In this document: one piece after another, positions 7,183 to 38,385 of the stretch
Layout of the letters: each line of letters starts with the position of its first letter
Position numbering within the stretch: the first letter of the stretch is position 1
Assembly (NCBI GenBank): GCA_012521815.1
Contig: JAAYLR010000111.1
Span: forward strand, 1-45,444
Direction: 5' to 3'
Length of the DNA: 45,444 bases
Source: Acidobacteriota bacterium
GTDB lineage: Bacteria > Acidobacteriota > Thermoanaerobaculia > Multivoradales > JAGPDF01
The notes under the pieces: model-generated
What the model was told of the DNA's origin: nothing
Databases searched by the model: none
What the model saw: only the letters and a program-made list of their open reading frames with translations
Made by a program: the position numbers and the translations under genes

Positions 7183-7623
7183 CTACACCCCCCGCAGGGC
7201 GAGGGCCTGGAAATCGTCCTCGGTGAACGGCTCTTCGGCGAGCTTGCGGACGAAGCGGTCGCGGTTCCAGACCACGAGGTGATCGAGGCTGCCGCTGACC
7301 ACCACCTCGCCGGCGATCCCCGCGCTCTCGCGCAGGATCGGCGGCATCACCAGCCGGCCCTGGCCGTCGAGGCGCAGCTGCTGGCCGTAGTAGCTGACCC
7401 GTTCGAGGAAGCGCTGCCGGACCCGGTCGGTGGAGGGCATCGCCAGCAGGCGGCTTTCGATCTCCTCCCAGACCGGCAGCGGGTAGATCAGCGCCGAGTC
7501 GCCGAGCACGGAGGTGACGAAGAGGTCGCTGCCCCACCGCTCCTCGAGCGTCCGGCGCAGATCGGCCGGCACCTTGAGGCGCCCTTTGTCGTCGATGGTG
7601 GCAACCGCGCTACCCCGTAACAT
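7183..7623 (-). CDS. mraZ: MraZ, transcriptional regulator of the division and cell-wall cluster
   Basis: AbrB-like double-SpoVT domain DNA-binding protein that autoregulates the cluster by binding short repeats upstream of itself. At 146 residues it has the usual length. The two half domains are visible: the N-terminal ATIDDKGRLKVPADLR and the second LRLDGQGRLVMPPILRE, each carrying the D-x-K/Q-G-R-L/V signature. It is the first gene of the operon. AGGAG at 7634-7638 lies 10 nt before the ATG. A promoter and three MraZ-type boxes lie immediately upstream, supporting autoregulation. Confidence 0.97.
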   Translation of the reverse strand: MLRGSAVATIDDKGRLKVPADLRRTLEERWGSDLFVTSVLGDSALIYPLPVWEEIESRLLAMPSTDRVRQRFLERVSYYGQQLRLDGQGRLVMPPILRESAGIAGEVVVSGSLDHLVVWNRDRFVRKLAEEPFTEDDFQALALRGV

Positions 7624-7757: not shown

Positions 7758-8825
7758 TCAGGGAATCGGGGTTTCGGGCTCCGGCGTCGCCTCCGGACGC
7801 GGGATCGGGGCCAGCAGATCGACCTCGGCCGGGGGCGCGAGCTCGCGGTAGCCGACCGCGTCGGAGGGGAGGTTCTCCGCGACATAGGCCCGCGCCGTGA
7901 GCTCGGCGAGATAGCGCTTCATCTCCTGCTCGTACTGCCGGTTCTCCTCGATCATCTCGATCCGCTCGCGCACCTCCTGGAGGGGGCGCACCCGCGCCGG
8001 CTCCCGGGCGACGACCCGCAGGATGTGCAGGCCCCCCCGGGCCGGGACCGGCGCGCTGACCTCCCCCGGTTCGAGTGCCCACGCCGCTCCCTCGAGCGCG
8101 GCGTCGAGCTCCCCGCGCTGCACCCAGCCGAGCTCGACGAGCCCGGAGGTCTCCCCGCTCGCGGCGTGGCTCGCCGCCACGTCGGCGATCGCCTCGCCGG
8201 CCGCGAGACGGTCGCGGATCTGCGCCGCCAGCGCCGCCAGCGCCTCGGCATCGGGACGGGCCTGCTCCCGGACGACCAGCTCCTGGAGCTCGATCCGCTC
8301 CGGGAGCCGGAACTCCTCGACGTGCTCGCGGTAGAAACGCTGCACCGCCTCCTCGTCGACCTTGATCCGGGGCTGCACCTCGCGGCCGATCACCTCCTGC
8401 CACTGGAGCTGCTTCTCGAGCCGCGCCCGGTAGAGATCGATGCTCAACCCGCTCTGGGCGAGGGCCGCCGCGAACTCCGCCTCGGAGCTCAGGCCGTAGC
8501 GCTCGCGGGTGCTCGTCATCGCGCGGGCGAGCTGGTCGCGGGTGACGATGATTCGCAGCTGCTGGGCCCGGGAGAGGATGAGCAGCTCGTCGAACAGCTC
8601 CTTCATCGTCGCCCGGCCGACCTCTTCGACGAGCTGGCGGCGTTCGCTCTCGCCGAGGCCGGGGTCGTGGAGGATCATCCCGAGCCGCTCCTCGCGGCGT
8701 GACTCGTACTCGCGCAGCGTCGCGATCCGGTCGTTGACCCGGAGCACGATCCGGTTGCTCTCCACGGCGCCGGCGGCGCCGGCGGCGAGCAGCAGCAGGG
8801 AAAGGAGGGAACGCCAGCTAACCAT
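7758..8825 (-). CDS. SurA-like periplasmic parvulin-type chaperone/prolyl isomerase
   Basis: The 355-residue product starts with a signal peptide (WRSLLSLLLLAAGAAGAVES), so it is exported. The mature N-terminal region opens with NRIVLRVNDRIATLREYE, the usual SurA N-domain opening, followed by a helical region and a single parvulin domain at about residues 185-285 (IELQELVVRE, then LVELGWVQRGELDAALEGAAWALEPGEVSAPV and GGLHILRVV in pieces). The C-terminus is proline-rich. It probably assists outer-membrane protein folding. The ATG lies 8 nt inside the end of the preceding parvulin lipoprotein gene, indicating coupling. E. coli SurA has two parvulin domains; only one is evident here. Confidence 0.82.
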   Translation of the reverse strand: MVSWRSLLSLLLLAAGAAGAVESNRIVLRVNDRIATLREYESRREERLGMILHDPGLGESERRQLVEEVGRATMKELFDELLILSRAQQLRIIVTRDQLARAMTSTRERYGLSSEAEFAAALAQSGLSIDLYRARLEKQLQWQEVIGREVQPRIKVDEEAVQRFYREHVEEFRLPERIELQELVVREQARPDAEALAALAAQIRDRLAAGEAIADVAASHAASGETSGLVELGWVQRGELDAALEGAAWALEPGEVSAPVPARGGLHILRVVAREPARVRPLQEVRERIEMIEENRQYEQEMKRYLAELTARAYVAENLPSDAVGYRELAPPAEVDLLAPIPRPEATPEPETPIP

Positions 8826-15087: not shown

Positions 15088-16362
15088 TCACTCCCAGCGC
15101 AGCGCCTCGACCGGATCGAGGGCCGAGGCGCGGCGCGCCGGGAGGTAGCCGGCGAGCAGGCCGGTGCCGGCGGCCGCCGCGAGGCCGCCGGCGACCGCCC
15201 AGAGCGGCGGCACCGCCGCGAACCCCGGCGCCGCGAGGGTGAGGAGCAGGCCGAGCAGGGAGGCGACGACCACCCCGGCGGCGCCGCCGGCGAGCGAGAG
15301 GATCGCCGCTTCGAGCAGGAACTGCCGCCGTACCTCCCCCCGCCGCGCCCCGAGCGCGCGGCGCAGGCCGATCTCCCGGGTCCGCTCGGTGACCGCGATG
15401 ATCATCACGTTGGCGATGCCGAGGCCGCCGATCAGGAGCGAGACCGCCGCGAGCGCCGCGGTGACGAGCCCGATCCGGGCGCCGAGGCGGTCGATCTGGG
15501 CGATGATCTGGTCGGAGGTCGAGAGGTGGAAGTCGTTCGGCTCCCCCGGGCCGAGATCGCGCAGGCGGCGGAGGATCGCCTCCACCTCGGCCCGCGCCGC
15601 CTCCCGCCGCCCCGGCTCGGCCTGGATGTAGAAGACCGCCTCCTCGGCCTCCGGATAGAGGCGGCGGGCGGTGCCGAGCGGGATCATGATCACGTTGTCC
15701 TGCCGGTTTTCCCCGAAGACGGCGCCCTGGCGCGGCGCGACCTCGCCGATCACCGTGAAGGCCACCCCCCCGAGGCGCAGCTCGCGGCCGGTCGCCCGCC
15801 CGCGCCCCCAGAGCGCCTGGGCGACGTTCGCTCCCATCACCGCCAGCCGGGCGCCCACCCGCTCCTCGAGCGGGGTGAACGGCCGCCCGGCGGCGAGCTC
15901 GGCGTCGGTGATCTCCATGAAGTTCGCCGAGACCCCCTCGACGAGCGCCTGCTCCGACTCGTTGCCGCCGCCGCGGACGACGAGCGGCCGGCCGCCGTCG
16001 AGCACCGGCACGAGCAGCTGCACCGCGACGTCGCGGATCTCGTTGCCGAGCGCCGCGATCCGGGGGGCGAGGGCCGGGTCGAGCGGCCGCCGCTGCGCCT
16101 CGGCCTCCGCCGGCGGGGAGTACGGATCGCCGGTGCGGTGATAGGCGAAGACGTTGTCCGAGCCGATCTCCCGGAAGAGCAACGCCACCTGGCTGCGGAC
16201 GCCGGCGAGCACCGCGGTGACGAGCACCACCGTGACCACCCCGATCACCACCCCGGCGATCGCGAGCAGCGAGCGCAGCGGCTGGCTGCGAATCGCCCCG
16301 AACGCCAGCCGCGCCGACTCCGCCGCGATCCGCCCGACCGCCCCCCGCCGCCGGCCGTTCAT
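15088..16362 (-). CDS. MacB/FtsX-type ABC transporter permease (second of pair)
   Basis: 424-residue inner-membrane protein with the MacB topology: one N-terminal membrane segment (SLLAIAGVVIGVVTVVLVT), a large periplasmic MacB-PCD domain (about residues 65-280), and three C-terminal segments of the FtsX domain including the coupling motif TERTREIGLRRALGARRGEV. The ending ARRASALDPVEALRWE is typical of this family. MacB-type exporters use mechanotransmission to drive efflux or lipoprotein release with a MacA-like adaptor. The ATG overlaps the stop of the upstream permease by 4 nt. No nucleotide-binding domain is encoded in this protein or nearby. Confidence 0.9.
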   Translation of the reverse strand: MNGRRRGAVGRIAAESARLAFGAIRSQPLRSLLAIAGVVIGVVTVVLVTAVLAGVRSQVALLFREIGSDNVFAYHRTGDPYSPPAEAEAQRRPLDPALAPRIAALGNEIRDVAVQLLVPVLDGGRPLVVRGGGNESEQALVEGVSANFMEITDAELAAGRPFTPLEERVGARLAVMGANVAQALWGRGRATGRELRLGGVAFTVIGEVAPRQGAVFGENRQDNVIMIPLGTARRLYPEAEEAVFYIQAEPGRREAARAEVEAILRRLRDLGPGEPNDFHLSTSDQIIAQIDRLGARIGLVTAALAAVSLLIGGLGIANVMIIAVTERTREIGLRRALGARRGEVRRQFLLEAAILSLAGGAAGVVVASLLGLLLTLAAPGFAAVPPLWAVAGGLAAAAGTGLLAGYLPARRASALDPVEALRWE

Positions 16363-17609
16363 TCCGCCCTCAGCGCCCGGATGATCTCCACCCGCGACGC
16401 CAGCCGCGCCGGGTACCAGCCGGCGAGCAGCCCCGCGCCGGCGGCGTGACCGATCGCCAGCGCTACCGTGCGCGGGGTGAGCGCGAGATCGAGCGCGAAC
16501 GCCCCGGCGAGCAGGTCGGTGGCGAGCGCCACCACCCCGGTGCCGAGCGCGCCGCCCGCGAGCGCCACCAGCGTCGCCTCGGCGAGGACCTCGCTCACGA
16601 TCTGCCCCCGCGTCGCCCCCACCGCCCGGCGGACGCCGATCTCGAAGGTGCGCTGCGCGACCGAGACGAGGGTGGTGTTGGCGACCACCACGATCGCCGC
16701 GAGCAGCGCCATCGCCGAGAGGAGCGGGGCCACGCCGCCGACCCGGCCGGCGACCGCGAGCGCGAAGCTGCGCGCCGCCTCCGGCGCCACGAGATCGAAG
16801 TCGTCCGCGACGCCGGGGCCGAGCCGCCGCCGCGCCCGCAGCGTCGCCCGCGCCCGGTCCTCGGCCGCCGCCACCGTCTGCCCCGGCGCCGGGTGCGCGG
16901 TGAGCTGGAGCGACGGCGCCGCCCCGTACGCCCGCTCCCAGGCCGGCAGCGGCACCCAGACGGAGCGGTCGAGCGACATCCCGGCGGAGGTCCCGAGGCG
17001 CTCCTGCACCCCGATCACCGTGAACCCGCGGCCGGCGAGCCGCACCGTCCCGCCGAGCGGGTCGCGACCGGGGAAGAGCGCCTCGGCCACCTCGTGCCCG
17101 AGCACCGCCACCTGCCGGCCGGCCCGCTCCTCGCCGGCCGAGAAGAACCGTCCCTCCCGGATCGCGAGCTCCCGGATCTCGGGCAGCCGGTGCCCCGTGC
17201 CGGCCACCGTGGCGTTCTCGAACCGGTGGCTGCCGCGCTTCACCTCGGCGCTCCGCTGCGCGAGCGGCGCGGAGACGAACCGGCCGTCGGCATGCGCGTC
17301 GAGAAAACGGTGATCGGCGCGCCGGAGCGGCGGGTTGCGCTCCTGCTTGCGGGCGAGCTCGCGGCGCGACACCTGTCCCGCGGCGCCGACCCGGGCGAGC
17401 ACGAACGAGTCGGCGCCGAAGGCGCGCGCGGTGCTCTGCCGGGCGTAGAGGGTGAGCCCTTCGACCGCGGTGTGCACCGCCGCGAGCGTGGCCACCGCGA
17501 CCGCGATCGCCAGCACCCCGAGGCCGCTGCGCAGCGGGTTGGCGCGCGCCGAACGCGCGCCCTGCGCGAAGGCGCGCGAGAGGCAGGGCAGGCGCGGGAC
17601 GAAGGCCAT
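16359..17609 (-). CDS. MacB/FtsX-type ABC transporter permease (first of pair)
   Basis: 416-residue paralogue of the following gene with the same layout: N-terminal membrane segment (LGVLAIAVAVATLAAVH), periplasmic MacB-PCD domain containing GTVRLAGRGFTVIGVQERLG, and three C-terminal segments with QRTFEIGVRRAVGATRGQIV. A second, different permease suggests a heterodimeric exporter. The ATG at 17609 is chosen over an in-frame TTG 12 nt upstream, because the latter lies at the edge of a 22-bp palindrome. No Shine-Dalgarno is visible; TAGATT ends 10 nt before the ATG, so the message may be leaderless. It is divergent from the adaptor gene. Confidence 0.88.
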   Translation of the reverse strand: MAFVPRLPCLSRAFAQGARSARANPLRSGLGVLAIAVAVATLAAVHTAVEGLTLYARQSTARAFGADSFVLARVGAAGQVSRRELARKQERNPPLRRADHRFLDAHADGRFVSAPLAQRSAEVKRGSHRFENATVAGTGHRLPEIRELAIREGRFFSAGEERAGRQVAVLGHEVAEALFPGRDPLGGTVRLAGRGFTVIGVQERLGTSAGMSLDRSVWVPLPAWERAYGAAPSLQLTAHPAPGQTVAAAEDRARATLRARRRLGPGVADDFDLVAPEAARSFALAVAGRVGGVAPLLSAMALLAAIVVVANTTLVSVAQRTFEIGVRRAVGATRGQIVSEVLAEATLVALAGGALGTGVVALATDLLAGAFALDLALTPRTVALAIGHAAGAGLLAGWYPARLASRVEIIRALRAE

Positions 17610-17621
17610 GGGCAACGGCAA

Positions 17622-17643
17622 TCTAGCACCCGCGGGTGCTAGA
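17622..17643. promoter_or_regulatory. 22-bp perfect palindrome, candidate operator for divergent efflux genes
   Basis: The half-site TCTAGCACCCG is followed directly by its exact reverse complement, with no mismatch in 11 pairs. It sits in the middle of the 44-bp gap between the permease (start 17609, minus) and adaptor (start 17654, plus). TAGATT on the minus strand and TAGAGT on the plus strand, the likely -10 elements, overlap its two ends. A dimeric repressor here would shut both promoters. No T run follows, so a terminator is unlikely. Confidence 0.6.
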
Positions 17644-17653
17644 GTCGTCGTTC

Positions 17654-18826
17654 GTGAAGCGGTGGCGCTGGATCATCGGCATCGGGCTGCTGGCAGCCGG
17701 AGCGATCGCTTTCGTCTCGCTGCGCGCCCGTCGCGACCACGGCGTTCCGGTCGATCTCGCGACGGTGACGGCGCGCCCCCTCTTCCAGTCGTTCGCGACC
17801 GCCTCGGGCGAGATCGTCGCCAGCCGCTGGGCCGACATCGGCTCGAGCGTCATGGGCCGCCTCGTCGCGCTCACCGTTGCCGAGGGGGAGCGGGTCGCGG
17901 CGGGGCAGGTCCTCGCCCGGATCGATCCGGTCCAGGCGGCGAGCGAGGCGGAGGCGGCCGCGGCGCTCGTGCGGGCGCTCGAAGGGGAGCTCGCGGCCGC
18001 CGAGGCGCGGGCGACCGACACCCGCCTCGCCGCCGGTCGCGCCCGGGCGCTGCTCGCCGAGGGGATCCAGTCGCAGGCCGAACTCGACGCCGCCACCGCC
18101 GCCGCCGACGCCGCCGCGGCGAGCGTCGAGGCCGCCAGCCGCCGCGTGGCGCAGGGGCGCGCCCAGCTCACCCGCGCCCGCGACGCGCTCGCGAAGACCG
18201 AGATCACCGCGCCGATGGCCGGCGTCGTCACCCGCCTCGCCGTGCGCGAAGGGGAGATGGTCGTCGTCGGGGTGCAGAACCAGCCCGGCACGATCCTCAT
18301 GACCCTCTCCGACCTCTCGGCGCTCGACGCCGAGGTGAAGGTGGCCGAGGCCGACGTCCTCCGCCTCCGGATCGGCCAGCCCGCCTGGGTGACCCTCGAA
18401 GCGGCTCCGGAACGCGAGCTCGCCGGCCACGTCGTCGAGATCGGGGCGAGCGCGCTGCCGCTCGCGGGCGGCGCGAGCGCGGCGCGGGAGTTCCGGGTCG
18501 TCGTCCGCCTCGACACCCCGGCCGCCGAGCTCAAGCCGGGGCTGACCTGCGACGTCCGGATCCTCGCCGAGGAGGTTCGCGACGTGCTCACCGTCCCCCT
18601 GCAGGCGGTCGTGCTCCGCGCCGACGAGAGCGGCACGGAGCGGCCGGGGCTCTTCCTCGCCGAGGCCGGCCACGCCCGCTTCGCACCGGTCGAAACCGGG
18701 GTGATCGGCGGGCTCGACGTCGAGGTGCGGGGCGTGCCGGCCGGGGCCGCGGTCGTCGCGGGGCCTTTCCAGGCGCTGCGGGACCTCGTCGACGGCGCTC
18801 CCCTGCGCACGCGCAGCGGCCACTGA
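17654..18826 (+). CDS. MacA/HlyD-type periplasmic adaptor subunit
   Basis: 390-residue membrane-fusion protein: N-terminal anchor (WRWIIGIGLLAAGAIAFVSL), a lipoyl half domain (GRLVALTVAEGERVAAGQVLARI), an alanine-rich alpha-helical hairpin over about residues 95-180, the second lipoyl half (APMAGVVTRLAVREGEMVV), then beta-barrel and membrane-proximal domains. It would bridge the inner-membrane permeases and an outer-membrane channel. The start GTG at 17654 places the anchor at the N-terminus; an in-frame GTG at 17636 lies inside the palindrome. TAGAGT ends 8 nt before the chosen start and no Shine-Dalgarno is seen. It is divergent from, and probably works with, the two permeases. Confidence 0.88.
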   Translation: MKRWRWIIGIGLLAAGAIAFVSLRARRDHGVPVDLATVTARPLFQSFATASGEIVASRWADIGSSVMGRLVALTVAEGERVAAGQVLARIDPVQAASEAEAAAALVRALEGELAAAEARATDTRLAAGRARALLAEGIQSQAELDAATAAADAAAASVEAASRRVAQGRAQLTRARDALAKTEITAPMAGVVTRLAVREGEMVVVGVQNQPGTILMTLSDLSALDAEVKVAEADVLRLRIGQPAWVTLEAAPERELAGHVVEIGASALPLAGGASAAREFRVVVRLDTPAAELKPGLTCDVRILAEEVRDVLTVPLQAVVLRADESGTERPGLFLAEAGHARFAPVETGVIGGLDVEVRGVPAGAAVVAGPFQALRDLVDGAPLRTRSGH

Positions 18827-30465: not shown

Positions 30466-31260
30466 TTACGGCATGGGGCCCGCGTCTCGCCGGAGACGCC
30501 CGAGGGCGAGAGCCAGCTGGTTGGCGACCGTCTCGAGCAGGCGGACGGCGTCCTCGGGCGGGGCCGCCGCGCCCTCCGCCCAGCGTATGCCGAGCACGCC
30601 GAGCACCTCCTCGTCGGCACCGGGCAGCGGCACGTAGAGACCGGGCGTGGTCCGGTACTCCCGCGTGAGCGCCCCCGCCGCGCGGCCATGGTCGTAGACC
30701 CACTCCGCCGCCTCCAGCTCCTCCCCACCGAAGTGCGTCCCGTCGCCGGCACGCACCTCGAGATCCCCCCGCTCACCGGGGACCAGAACCACGGCCTCGC
30801 CGCCGAACAGCACGCGCGCATGGCGGCCGGCGGCATGGAACAGAGCCTCCTCGAAGGGCGCCTCGGCGAGGTCGCGGCTCAGCTCGTAGAGGGCAGTCGC
30901 CCGCCGTTCGCGGGCGCCCGCCGCCGCCGCCTCGGCCCGGAGCCGACCGGTCAGCGTCGAGATCGTGATCCCCACCGCCAGCATCCCGGCGAAGGTGAGC
31001 AGGTACTGTGCATCGTCCACCGTGAAGGTGAGGTGTGGCGGCACGAAGAAGAAGTCGAACAGCGCGACCCCGAGGAGCGCGGCCAGCGCCGAAGGACCCC
31101 GACCGGAGCCGAGCGACACCGCCACCACCATGAGGAGGAAGAGCATCGAGAGGTTGACGGGTGCGATGTGACCGCGCACGGCGGCGGCGAGCGCCGTGGT
31201 CGCGACGGTCACTGCGGCGGCGATCAGATAGCCGCGCAAAGGGTGGGCGATCGTCCTCAT
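30466..31260 (-). CDS. KdpD-like DUF4118-GAF membrane protein without kinase domain
   Basis: 264-residue protein carrying four membrane segments at about residues 8-95 (DUF4118, as in KdpD, with the typical LLGVALFDFFFVPPHLTF) followed by a GAF-like domain at about 110-255 (ALYELSRDLAEAPFEEALF onward). There is no USP/KdpD N-terminal domain and no HisKA or ATPase domain, so it is not a kinase by itself. It may sense a signal and act on the kinase encoded divergently, or be a remnant of KdpD. The frame is intact and GC3-rich, arguing for a working gene. The ATG has GGGAG 5 nt upstream; an in-frame TTG lies 33 nt farther up. Confidence 0.8.
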   Translation of the reverse strand: MRTIAHPLRGYLIAAAVTVATTALAAAVRGHIAPVNLSMLFLLMVVAVSLGSGRGPSALAALLGVALFDFFFVPPHLTFTVDDAQYLLTFAGMLAVGITISTLTGRLRAEAAAAGARERRATALYELSRDLAEAPFEEALFHAAGRHARVLFGGEAVVLVPGERGDLEVRAGDGTHFGGEELEAAEWVYDHGRAAGALTREYRTTPGLYVPLPGADEEVLGVLGIRWAEGAAAPPEDAVRLLETVANQLALALGRLRRDAGPMP

Positions 31261-31403
31261 GAGGGCTCCCGGAGCGGATCGCCGGTACCGCAAACCGCGG
31301 CGCGCGGCTCCGCCACGAGGTCATGCTCCACGCCGCGCACGGAAGAAGTCCGGAGGGAGGACGAAAGAGAGCGCGAAGGGCGAGCGGCCAGCCGCCGCTG
31401 CGC

Positions 31404-31409
31404 TAGACT
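31404..31409 (+). promoter_or_regulatory. Candidate -10 for the histidine kinase operon
   Basis: TAGACT lies 24 nt before the kinase GTG, identical to the -10 of mraZ and mfd. No clear -35 is found. GAGGAG downstream of it could serve as ribosome site, though it is about 13 nt from the start. Confidence 0.35.
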
Positions 31410-31433
31410 GACCCGAGGAGCGGCCGACCGATC

Positions 31434-32900
31434 GTGGGCGAGATGCAACGGCGACTGGAAGGCAGACGGTGGCTCGTCCCCACCGGTGCCGCCGCGGTAC
31501 TCACGGCCGTCACCTTCACGCTGTCAGCCGCCGGCGTCAATCCCGCCGCGGCGGGTCAGCTCTTCCTCATCACCGTCCTCCTCCTCGCCACCTGGGGAGG
31601 CCTCGGGATCGGGGTGACGGCGGCGCTCGTCGCCACCGCCGCCTTCAACGTCTTCTTTCTCCCCCCTACCGGAACGTTCGACATCGCCGACGCGAGCAAC
31701 TGGGTCGCGCTTGCCTCCTTCCTCGCCGCGGCGGTGCTCGCGAGCCGCCTGGTGGTCCGGGCCCGCCGGCAGGCGCAGACCGCGCTCGCCAGAGCTACCG
31801 AGATCGAAGCCCTCTACCGGCTCGGCATCGAGCTCTTCACGGCCGCGGTGGGCACCCGGAGCCTCGCGCACACCGCCACGGAGGCGGTCCGCGCCACCGG
31901 CGCCGCCGCCGGTGGCCTTGCCCTCTTCCGCGGCGAGGGAGAGCTGGTGTTCCCCGACTGGTTCGGCGAGGTCCCCGACGGTACCGTGCGGCAGCGGATC
32001 GCGAGCCTCCGGGTCCACGGCCAGACGCTCGAGTTCCCGGCCACGCGAGGGACTGACCTCTACCTGCCGCTGCTGACGGGAGAAGAGCCGGTGGGCGCCC
32101 TGGTGGCACGCGCGACCGAGGCCACCCGCAGCGCCCTGGAGTCCGCCGCCCGGCTGCTCGCCCTCGCCCTCGAGCGCGACCGCCTGCTCGCCGATCGCTC
32201 CCGCCTCGAGGCGCTGCGCGAGAGCGAGGCACTCAAGACCGCGCTGCTGCGCGCAGTCTCTCACGACCTCTCCTCGCCGCTGACCGTCATGGGGATCCAG
32301 GTCGACGGGCTGCGGCGCGAGCTCGGCCCGTACCCGGAGCTCGGAAGCCGGCTCGCGGCGCTCACGGCGCAGATCGGGCTGCTCCAGCGCCGGATCGGCA
32401 ACCTGCTCTCTTTCGCCCGGCTCGAAGCCGGACAGATCGAACCTCACCCCGAGCCGCTGCCGGTTCCGGATCTCGTGCGCGCGGCCCGGGAGAGCCTCTC
32501 GCTCCCCCGTCCCGAGCGACCGGTCGCGGTGGAGATCGCGCCCGACTGTCCCGATCTCCTCGTCGACCCCTCTCTAGCCCTCGAGATCCTCGTCAACCTG
32601 CTGGAGAACGCCGACCGGGCCTCGCCGCCGGGCGAGGCCCTCGAGATCCGGGGGGGTCGTCATCCCACGCTCCCGGCGAGGATCCGCCTCGGCGTTCTCG
32701 ACCGCGGCCCGGGGCTGACGGAGCTCGGGGAGGAGGGGCAGGAGATCGATGCCGCGAACGTGCAGCCACGTGGACTCGGCCTCGAAATCGCCCGCAGCTT
32801 CGCCGGCGCCAGCGGCGGCGCGATCCGGCTCACGCGGCGGCACGGTGGCGGCACCTGCGCCTGGGCGGATCTGCCCGCCGCGGCCAGCGGAGAGCCCTGA
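31434..32900 (+). CDS. KdpD-like sensor histidine kinase (DUF4118-GAF-HisKA-HATPase)
   Basis: 488-residue inner-membrane kinase. It has a DUF4118 region of about four membrane segments (residues 15-105, with AAFNVFFLPPTGTFDI), a GAF-like region (about 125-250), a HisKA dimerisation domain with phospho-acceptor His277 in AVSHDLSSPLTVMG, and an HATPase domain with NLLENADRASPPG, LDRGPGLTEL and RGLGLEIARSF. It corresponds to the C-terminal half of KdpD and lacks the N-terminal KdpD/USP sensor domains. The start is GTG 31434 or ATG 31443. The response regulator gene shares its last base (TGATG), so the pair is coupled. Confidence 0.9.
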   Translation: MGEMQRRLEGRRWLVPTGAAAVLTAVTFTLSAAGVNPAAAGQLFLITVLLLATWGGLGIGVTAALVATAAFNVFFLPPTGTFDIADASNWVALASFLAAAVLASRLVVRARRQAQTALARATEIEALYRLGIELFTAAVGTRSLAHTATEAVRATGAAAGGLALFRGEGELVFPDWFGEVPDGTVRQRIASLRVHGQTLEFPATRGTDLYLPLLTGEEPVGALVARATEATRSALESAARLLALALERDRLLADRSRLEALRESEALKTALLRAVSHDLSSPLTVMGIQVDGLRRELGPYPELGSRLAALTAQIGLLQRRIGNLLSFARLEAGQIEPHPEPLPVPDLVRAARESLSLPRPERPVAVEIAPDCPDLLVDPSLALEILVNLLENADRASPPGEALEIRGGRHPTLPARIRLGVLDRGPGLTELGEEGQEIDAANVQPRGLGLEIARSFAGASGGAIRLTRRHGGGTCAWADLPAAASGEP

Positions 32901-36982: not shown

Positions 36983-37396
36983 ATGGCCCGCCCTCCGCAC
37001 CCGCGCCGCATCGCCCTCTCCTGTCCGGGAGCCGGCTTTCGGCCGCTTGACCGGCCCGTGCGCGGGACCCCGGTCCTCACCCTCGGCCTCGACGGGCTCG
37101 AGGCGCTGCGCCTCGCCGATCTCGAAGGGCTCTACCAGGAGGCCGCGGCGGAGCGGATGGGGGTCTCGCGCCCGACCTTCGCCCGCGTCCTCACCCGCGC
37201 CCGCGCGGTGGTCGCCGAAGCGCTCGTGGAGGGGAAGGTGCTCGTGATCGGGGCGGTGCCCTCGCGCCCGGGGGCGGACGAACCGCTCCCCTGCCCGCTC
37301 CACGGGGGCGAACGCCGGCGCGGCCGGGCCTGCCGTTGCGGGAGGCTCGATACGCCCTGCGATCCGGGGCCGGAGGGCCCCGAGGAGATCTCATGA
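36983..37396 (+). CDS. DUF134 (UPF0251) family predicted DNA-binding regulator
   Basis: 137-residue protein with the DUF134 pattern: ARPPHPRRIALSCPG start, LTLGLDGLEALRLADLEGL, then a sigma70-region-4-like helix-turn-helix QEAAAERMGVSRPTFARVL at about residues 52-70. The C-terminus holds several cysteines (CPLHGG, then CRCGRLDTPC), suggesting a metal or Fe-S site that could sense the cofactor. The family is commonly found beside NifX/NifB-like metal-cofactor proteins, as here. It is the first gene of the operon, behind a promoter with an overlapping palindrome, and overlaps the radical SAM gene by 4 nt (ATGA). Confidence 0.87.
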   Translation: MARPPHPRRIALSCPGAGFRPLDRPVRGTPVLTLGLDGLEALRLADLEGLYQEAAAERMGVSRPTFARVLTRARAVVAEALVEGKVLVIGAVPSRPGADEPLPCPLHGGERRRGRACRCGRLDTPCDPGPEGPEEIS

Positions 37397-38385
37397 CCAC
37401 GCGCAAGCTCCGGGACCGCTCACCCGGCGGCCACGTCTACGGCCCGGTGCCGAGCCGCCGGTTCGGCGCCAGCCTCGGCGTCGACGCGGTGCCGTACAAG
37501 ATCTGCTCGTTCGACTGTACCTACTGCCAGCTCGGTCCCACCGGCACCCTGACGGCCCGGCGGCGGCGGTTCTACCCGGTCGAGACGATCCTCGCCGAGG
37601 TCGCGGCGCGGCTCGCCGACGGCCCCGCGCCCGACGTCATCACCCTCGCCGGCTCCGGCGAGCCGACGCTCGACAGCGGGCTCGGCGAGCTCATCGCCGG
37701 CCTGAAGCGGCTCGCGGCGGTGCCGGTGGTGCTGCTGACCAACGGCTCGCTCTTCCACCGCCCGGCGGTGCGCGCCGCGGCGGCGAAGGCCGACATCGTG
37801 GTCCCGAGCCTCGACGCCGGCGACGAGGCGACCTTCCAGGCCGTCAACCGGCCGGCCCCGGGTCTGACGCTCGCCCGCGTCGTGGCCGGTCTCGAGGCGT
37901 TCCGCGCCTCTTTCCAGGGGCGTCTCTGGCTCGAGGTGATGGTGATGGACGGCGTCAACGACAGCCCGGAGCAGCTCGCCCGGATCGCCGTCCTCGCCCG
38001 CCGGATCGGCGCCGAGAAGGTCCAGCTCAACACCCCGGTGCGCCCGACGTTCGACGAGCGGGCGCGGCCGCTGAGCGCCGAACGCCTCGCCGCCTGCTGC
38101 GCCCATTTCGATCCGCCCGCCGAGCCGATCGCCGACTTCCGCGCCCGGGGCCCCGGCGCGGAGCCGCTCACGGCCGCCGACGACGAGCGGGTGCTCGCGC
38201 TGCTCGGCCGCCGCCCCTGCACGCTCGACGATCTCGCCGCCGGCCTGCAGCTCCACCCGGCCGAGGTGGGCAAGGCGCTCGGCCGCCTCGAGCGGGCGGG
38301 CGCGATCGCCGGCCACCAGCGCGGCGGCCGCCGCTACTGGATCGCCACACGCGGCGACCAGCCACCTTCCGAGAGGGGCCTTTGA
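37393..38385 (+). CDS. Radical SAM protein (COG0731-like) with C-terminal winged-helix-like domain
   Basis: 330-residue radical SAM enzyme. The start YGPVPSRRFGASLGVDAVP, the cluster-binding CSFDCTYCQLG (CxxxCxxC) and LAGSGEPTLDSGLGELI are characteristic of the COG0731 Fe-S oxidoreductases that accompany DUF134 and NifX-like genes; the reaction is unknown. The last 60 residues (DDERVLALLGRRPCTLDDLAAGL, in two parts) look like a winged helix (LHPAEVGKALGRLERAGAI), which could bind nucleic acid or be an interaction domain. GAGGAG precedes the ATG, which overlaps the DUF134 stop. The NifX-like gene follows after 88 nt. Confidence 0.88.
   Translation: MTTRKLRDRSPGGHVYGPVPSRRFGASLGVDAVPYKICSFDCTYCQLGPTGTLTARRRRFYPVETILAEVAARLADGPAPDVITLAGSGEPTLDSGLGELIAGLKRLAAVPVVLLTNGSLFHRPAVRAAAAKADIVVPSLDAGDEATFQAVNRPAPGLTLARVVAGLEAFRASFQGRLWLEVMVMDGVNDSPEQLARIAVLARRIGAEKVQLNTPVRPTFDERARPLSAERLAACCAHFDPPAEPIADFRARGPGAEPLTAADDERVLALLGRRPCTLDDLAAGLQLHPAEVGKALGRLERAGAIAGHQRGGRRYWIATRGDQPPSERGL

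Follow-up and report, generated by a model that had tools for sequence, protein, structure and literature searches.

A perfect 22-bp palindrome between divergent exporter genes of an Acidobacteriota bacterium is probably made of two back-to-back leaderless promoters

Leaderless genes are marked by a TANNNT hexamer, the first T of which lies about 12 bp before the start codon, and this signal was found in the Acidobacteria in 3/3 genomes (Zheng et al. 2011, PMC3160421). In Deinococcus, the TANNNT leaderless signal was tested by experiment (PMC12340547). Divergent transcription from a shared, pseudo-symmetrical -10 element has been described for bidirectional promoters by Warman, Grainger and others (PMC12825309, PMC10268837), the two starts being commonly 18 bp, and also 10 or 23 bp, apart (PMC12825309). 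A third point of comparison is the EcoRV restriction-modification system (PMC5333194).

The locus studied here resembles each system in some respects. With the TANNNT leaderless genes (PMC3160421, PMC12340547), it shares the hexamer pattern, a similar distance to the start codon, a high-GC genome and the lack of a Shine-Dalgarno sequence. However, two promoters lie back to back in the present case, with 14 bp between the hexamers and TGC before both. Like bidirectional promoters (PMC12825309, PMC10268837), the locus displays -10 symmetry and would accommodate one polymerase at a time. In contrast to them, it has two distinct hexamers and predicted starts some 40 bp from each other; because its -10 elements are not shared, it falls outside the definition of a bidirectional promoter (PMC12825309). 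With EcoRV (PMC5333194), the locus shares divergent promoters at which the binding sites for RNA polymerase overlap. In EcoRV, however, one of the promoters serves a gene for a regulator, the C protein, and the transcript of this gene is not of the leaderless kind; in our case, the searches gave no regulator. In the literature, to the extent that its text was accessible, nothing was found on leaderless, divergent, overlapping promoters with palindromes as an arrangement of its own.

The locus is a 44-nt gap (17610-17653) in the window, that is, the whole 45,444-nucleotide stretch of DNA that was analysed. It separates the ATG of a permease gene on the minus strand from the GTG of an adaptor gene on the plus strand, and it contains TCTAGCACCCGCGGGTGCTAGA, a perfect palindrome of 22 bp at 17622-17643 with 11/11 pairs. 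The first-pass annotation had reported such a palindrome in a 44-bp divergent gap of export genes; it is real, and its coordinates were reproduced. In 60 dinucleotide shuffles of the window, perfect palindromes of at least 22 bp are expected 0.23 times per 45 kb, as compared to one observed. Hence, that the window holds one palindrome of this length is unremarkable. What stands out is its placement exactly within the 44-nt divergent gap, not its length. The exporter region as a whole (15088-18826) comprises two FtsX/MacB-type permeases and the adaptor, and an adjoining ABC ATPase gene was not recognised. Elsewhere in the window (30469-32897), we observed a divergent pair of genes for DUF4118 membrane proteins, with a GAF domain in one and histidine kinase domains in the other.

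Table 1 Coordinates of the exporter genes and of the elements identified in the gap between them.
Feature	Coordinates	Strand	Details
perm1, MacB_PCD/FtsX permease	16359..17609	minus	start ATG 17609; PF12704 + PF02687
perm2, second MacB_PCD/FtsX permease	15088..16362	minus	4-nt overlap with the end of perm1
HlyD/CusB-type membrane-fusion adaptor	17654..18826	plus	start GTG 17654; PF16576 + PF13437
Putative permease promoter, extended -10 TGCTAGATT	17620..17628	minus	hexamer TAGATT 17625-17620, 10 nt from ATG 17609
Putative adaptor promoter, extended -10 TGCTAGAGT	17637..17645	plus	hexamer TAGAGT 17640-17645, 8 nt from GTG 17654
Palindrome arms	17622-17632 + 17633-17643		11 nt each, 100% complementary, gap between arms = 0
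Spacer CCCGCGGG	17629..17636		8 bp, all G/C, separates the two TGCTA motifs

The ends of the palindrome read TGCTAGANT on each strand. As noticed on first reading, they coincide with -10-like hexamers in both directions, 8 and 10 nt from start codons that lack a Shine-Dalgarno sequence. TGC precedes both hexamers, TAGAGT and TAGATT, and 14 bp lie between them (17620-17625 and 17640-17645). By inspection, neither GTG 17654 nor ATG 17609 is preceded by a purine run resembling a Shine-Dalgarno sequence, and a consensus scan found no sigma-70 pair with a -35 hexamer. Both starts therefore present two features of leaderless promoters, namely TANNNT 6-10 nt upstream (8 and 10 nt, respectively) and no Shine-Dalgarno.

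The distance between TANNNT and candidate starts was profiled in 404,092 bases of the same genome, hereafter G000 (the window and 34 further stretches). This sample held 294 likely ORFs, chosen by a simple GC-position rule without a trained gene finder, and 1,454 candidate in-frame ATG/GTG codons; five loci chosen by motif were left out of the profile. TANNNT was found 28 times at 6-10 nt upstream of the starts, versus 4 times at 0-5 nt and 15 times at 11-20 nt. This corresponds to 28 sites over 5 positions, compared with 19 over the 16 flanking ones (binomial 1.8e-7, and 1.1e-6 once the two sites of the palindrome locus itself are removed). A further 51 sites are spread across 21-40 nt, the expected place for the boxes of leadered genes. 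In the congener G001 (125,148 bases), the corresponding counts are 9 at 6-10 nt, 2 at 0-5 nt and 5 at 11-20 nt (9 versus 7, binomial 0.005). The reversed motif T...AT likewise peaks at 6-10 nt (27 sites) and is no independent control, because it overlaps TANNNT hexamers ending in AT. Position 3 of the hexamer is G in 15/28 of the G000 sites, and TGN precedes it in 7/28, TGC accounting for 5 of those. The permease-side distance of 10 nt exceeds the 6-8 nt of most sites and is shared by 7/28. The TANNNT peak 6-10 nt before starts therefore suggests that the palindrome arms are the leaderless -10 box of this lineage, present on both strands.

Two other sites of similar type were observed. At L133:11384-11453 in G000, compact divergent boxes of the leaderless type (TATGCT-N6-ATG on the minus strand, TAACAT-N10-ATG on the plus strand) occur with no palindrome; the starts are 69 nt apart and the plus gene encodes a DUF4388 protein. 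At L056:5610-5653, a leaderless-type promoter (TAGACT-N6-ATG) is immediately preceded by the G/C inverted repeat CCCCGG..CCGGGG, which is kept in G001.

Within the order, adaptor orthologs were found in G001 (80%), in G027 (64%) and in the more distant G060 (72 genomes searched). The class search (148 genomes) yielded the same four adaptor genomes, G000 included, and in the phylum sample 23/396 genomes, again counting G000, possess an ortholog. Placement of perm1 was compared over 26 loci: it is divergent beside the adaptor in 17, downstream on the same strand in 5, without a counterpart in 3 and uncertain in 1. Both -10 boxes with TGCTA are present in three of the 17 divergent loci (G000, G001 and G027) and missing from the other 14, and only G000 has the perfect 22-bp palindrome. 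Conservation in relatives had been named as a test of the palindrome at first reading. The full palindrome fails it, being absent from 16/16 other divergent loci, whereas its nine outer pairs persist in G001. The perm1 gene of G001 (L069:11389-12584) aligns as residues 10-175 and 188-416 in different frames, which corresponds to a frameshift or an assembly error.

Comparison of G000 with its two closest relatives, G001 and G027, separates what stays constant from what changes. In G001 (TCTAGCACCCGCCGGTGCTAGA), one central pair is broken at unchanged box spacing, 9/9 outer pairs and 7/8 central bases being kept, and the 8 bp before the GTG differ from those of G000 at 6/8 positions. In G027 (GGGTAGCACCCCGCGGGGCATGCTAGAGTC), where the permease-side extended -10 is TGCTACCCT, four inserted bases bring the TAGCA-TGCTA spacing to 12, versus 8 in G000. 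The distances from hexamer to start are nonetheless 8 and 10 nt in all three genomes. On the adaptor side, TGCTAGAGT-N8-start is kept in 3/3 loci with changed spacer and flanks, and on the minus strand TGCTANNNT-N10-ATG is also kept in 3/3. Start distances that stay fixed despite a changed box spacing would be expected if two promoters are present, and not if the site served one rigid dimer. Three more leaderless promoters, compared between G000 and G001, served as a control: TANNNT and its start distance are kept in 3/3, and upstream conservation varied, one of the three also having a conserved upstream stretch. At the palindrome, the conserved centre, set against the changed 8 bp before the GTG, could hint at a constraint beyond the -10 boxes. 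The first-pass idea of divergent, leaderless promoters is thus probably correct, given that the box occurs at the same distance genome-wide and is kept at the locus in G001 and G027.

Taken together, these comparisons make it likely that the palindrome consists of two back-to-back extended -10 elements and an 8-bp G/C spacer, forming compact divergent leaderless promoters. The perfect symmetry would arise because the -10 box is present twice and the centre is all G/C; in the window, 286/3,536 all-G/C 8-mers (8.1%) are palindromic. RNA polymerase carrying the housekeeping sigma factor would begin transcription at each start codon or no more than a few bases away, and the resulting mRNAs would be leaderless or nearly so. 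Assuming a 17-bp spacer, the plus promoter would have its -35 slot at 17617-17622, atop the minus -10. As each -35 position falls on the -10 hexamer of the other promoter, only one polymerase could presumably be accommodated at a time, and the promoters probably compete for RNA polymerase. Adaptor and permease, as the two exporter halves, would be co-expressed at a basal level under mutual competition, with no dedicated regulator.

The first-pass annotation had instead proposed a site for a dimeric regulator. In such an operator, a homodimeric repressor bound to 17622-17643 would cover both -10 boxes and switch both leaderless transcripts. Exporters often have local repressors, and the 11/11 symmetry lies exactly over both boxes. 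In addition, G001 retains all nine outer pairs, and the identity of 7/8 bases at the centre keeps this reading in play. However, the symmetry can be accounted for by the -10 boxes and the G/C spacer, it is broken in G001, and the site is missing from the 14 other divergent phylum loci. The change of spacing from 8 to 12 in G027 is also not what is expected of a rigid dimer.

Searches for a regulon and a regulator point the same way. The search for further half-site copies left the motif single-copy in the genome. When at most 3 mismatches were allowed, the 18-mer core was located at 3 positions in G000, of which two are weak matches, versus 6 for the backwards control; one weak match (window 8497-8514) falls within a PPIase gene. 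Among 98 genomes searched, TAGCACC-N2-9-GGTGCTA was found at a single site per genome in G000, G001 and 3 others. The divergent pattern TCTAGCA-N0-28-TGCTAGA gave 7 sites in 6/98 genomes, fewer than the backwards control, with spacers of 2, 20, 4, 8, 8, 5 and 27, none of which is preferred outside G000 and G001. In the genome_contigs collection, the exact 18-bp core has one match only, in a Chitinophaga MAG (L034:7615-7632). As for the regulator, none adjoins the gap among the 24 proteins of the window that were compared with Pfam (Mfd and SppA were scanned as their G001 counterparts in place of the window frames), in agreement with the first reading. The sole DNA-binding-like Pfam matches, MraZ (7186-7623) and the winged helix of a radical SAM protein (37336-38382), are not adjacent to it. 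With broken symmetry in G001, altered spacing in G027 and neither an adjacent regulator nor a regulon, we consider an operator unlikely.

Another proposal concerns the symmetry itself, which may have been selected: near-perfect symmetry would create a regulator-free toggle, in which the promoters are equal competitors for a single RNA polymerase. If true, the adaptor and permease of one exporter would be kept balanced, both mRNAs being leaderless, but we hold this to be quite unlikely. Coincidence, in which one or both hexamers are no promoter and the palindrome arose by chance in a G/C-rich genome, is very unlikely. The 0.23 palindromes of such length expected per window would allow for it, but both hexamers keep their start distance in three species between which the adjacent bases vary, and the genome-wide TANNNT peak lies at the same distances. 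Finally, an mRNA hairpin at the 5' end or a terminator function can be dismissed almost entirely: a single strand of the palindrome can fold, but the site lies between two 5' ends, it has no T run and nothing terminator-like, and leaderless transcripts, if such they are, would never include the palindrome.

Overall, two back-to-back leaderless promoters provide the simplest reading, a tidy but ordinary arrangement in which an operator is not required by anything found. At the sequence level, the locus strengthens the case for leaderless -10 boxes in this G/C-rich lineage. In a lineage with leaderless promoters, promoter boxes alone can give rise to perfect palindromes between divergent genes, and such palindromes should not be called operators without a test of spacing in relatives.
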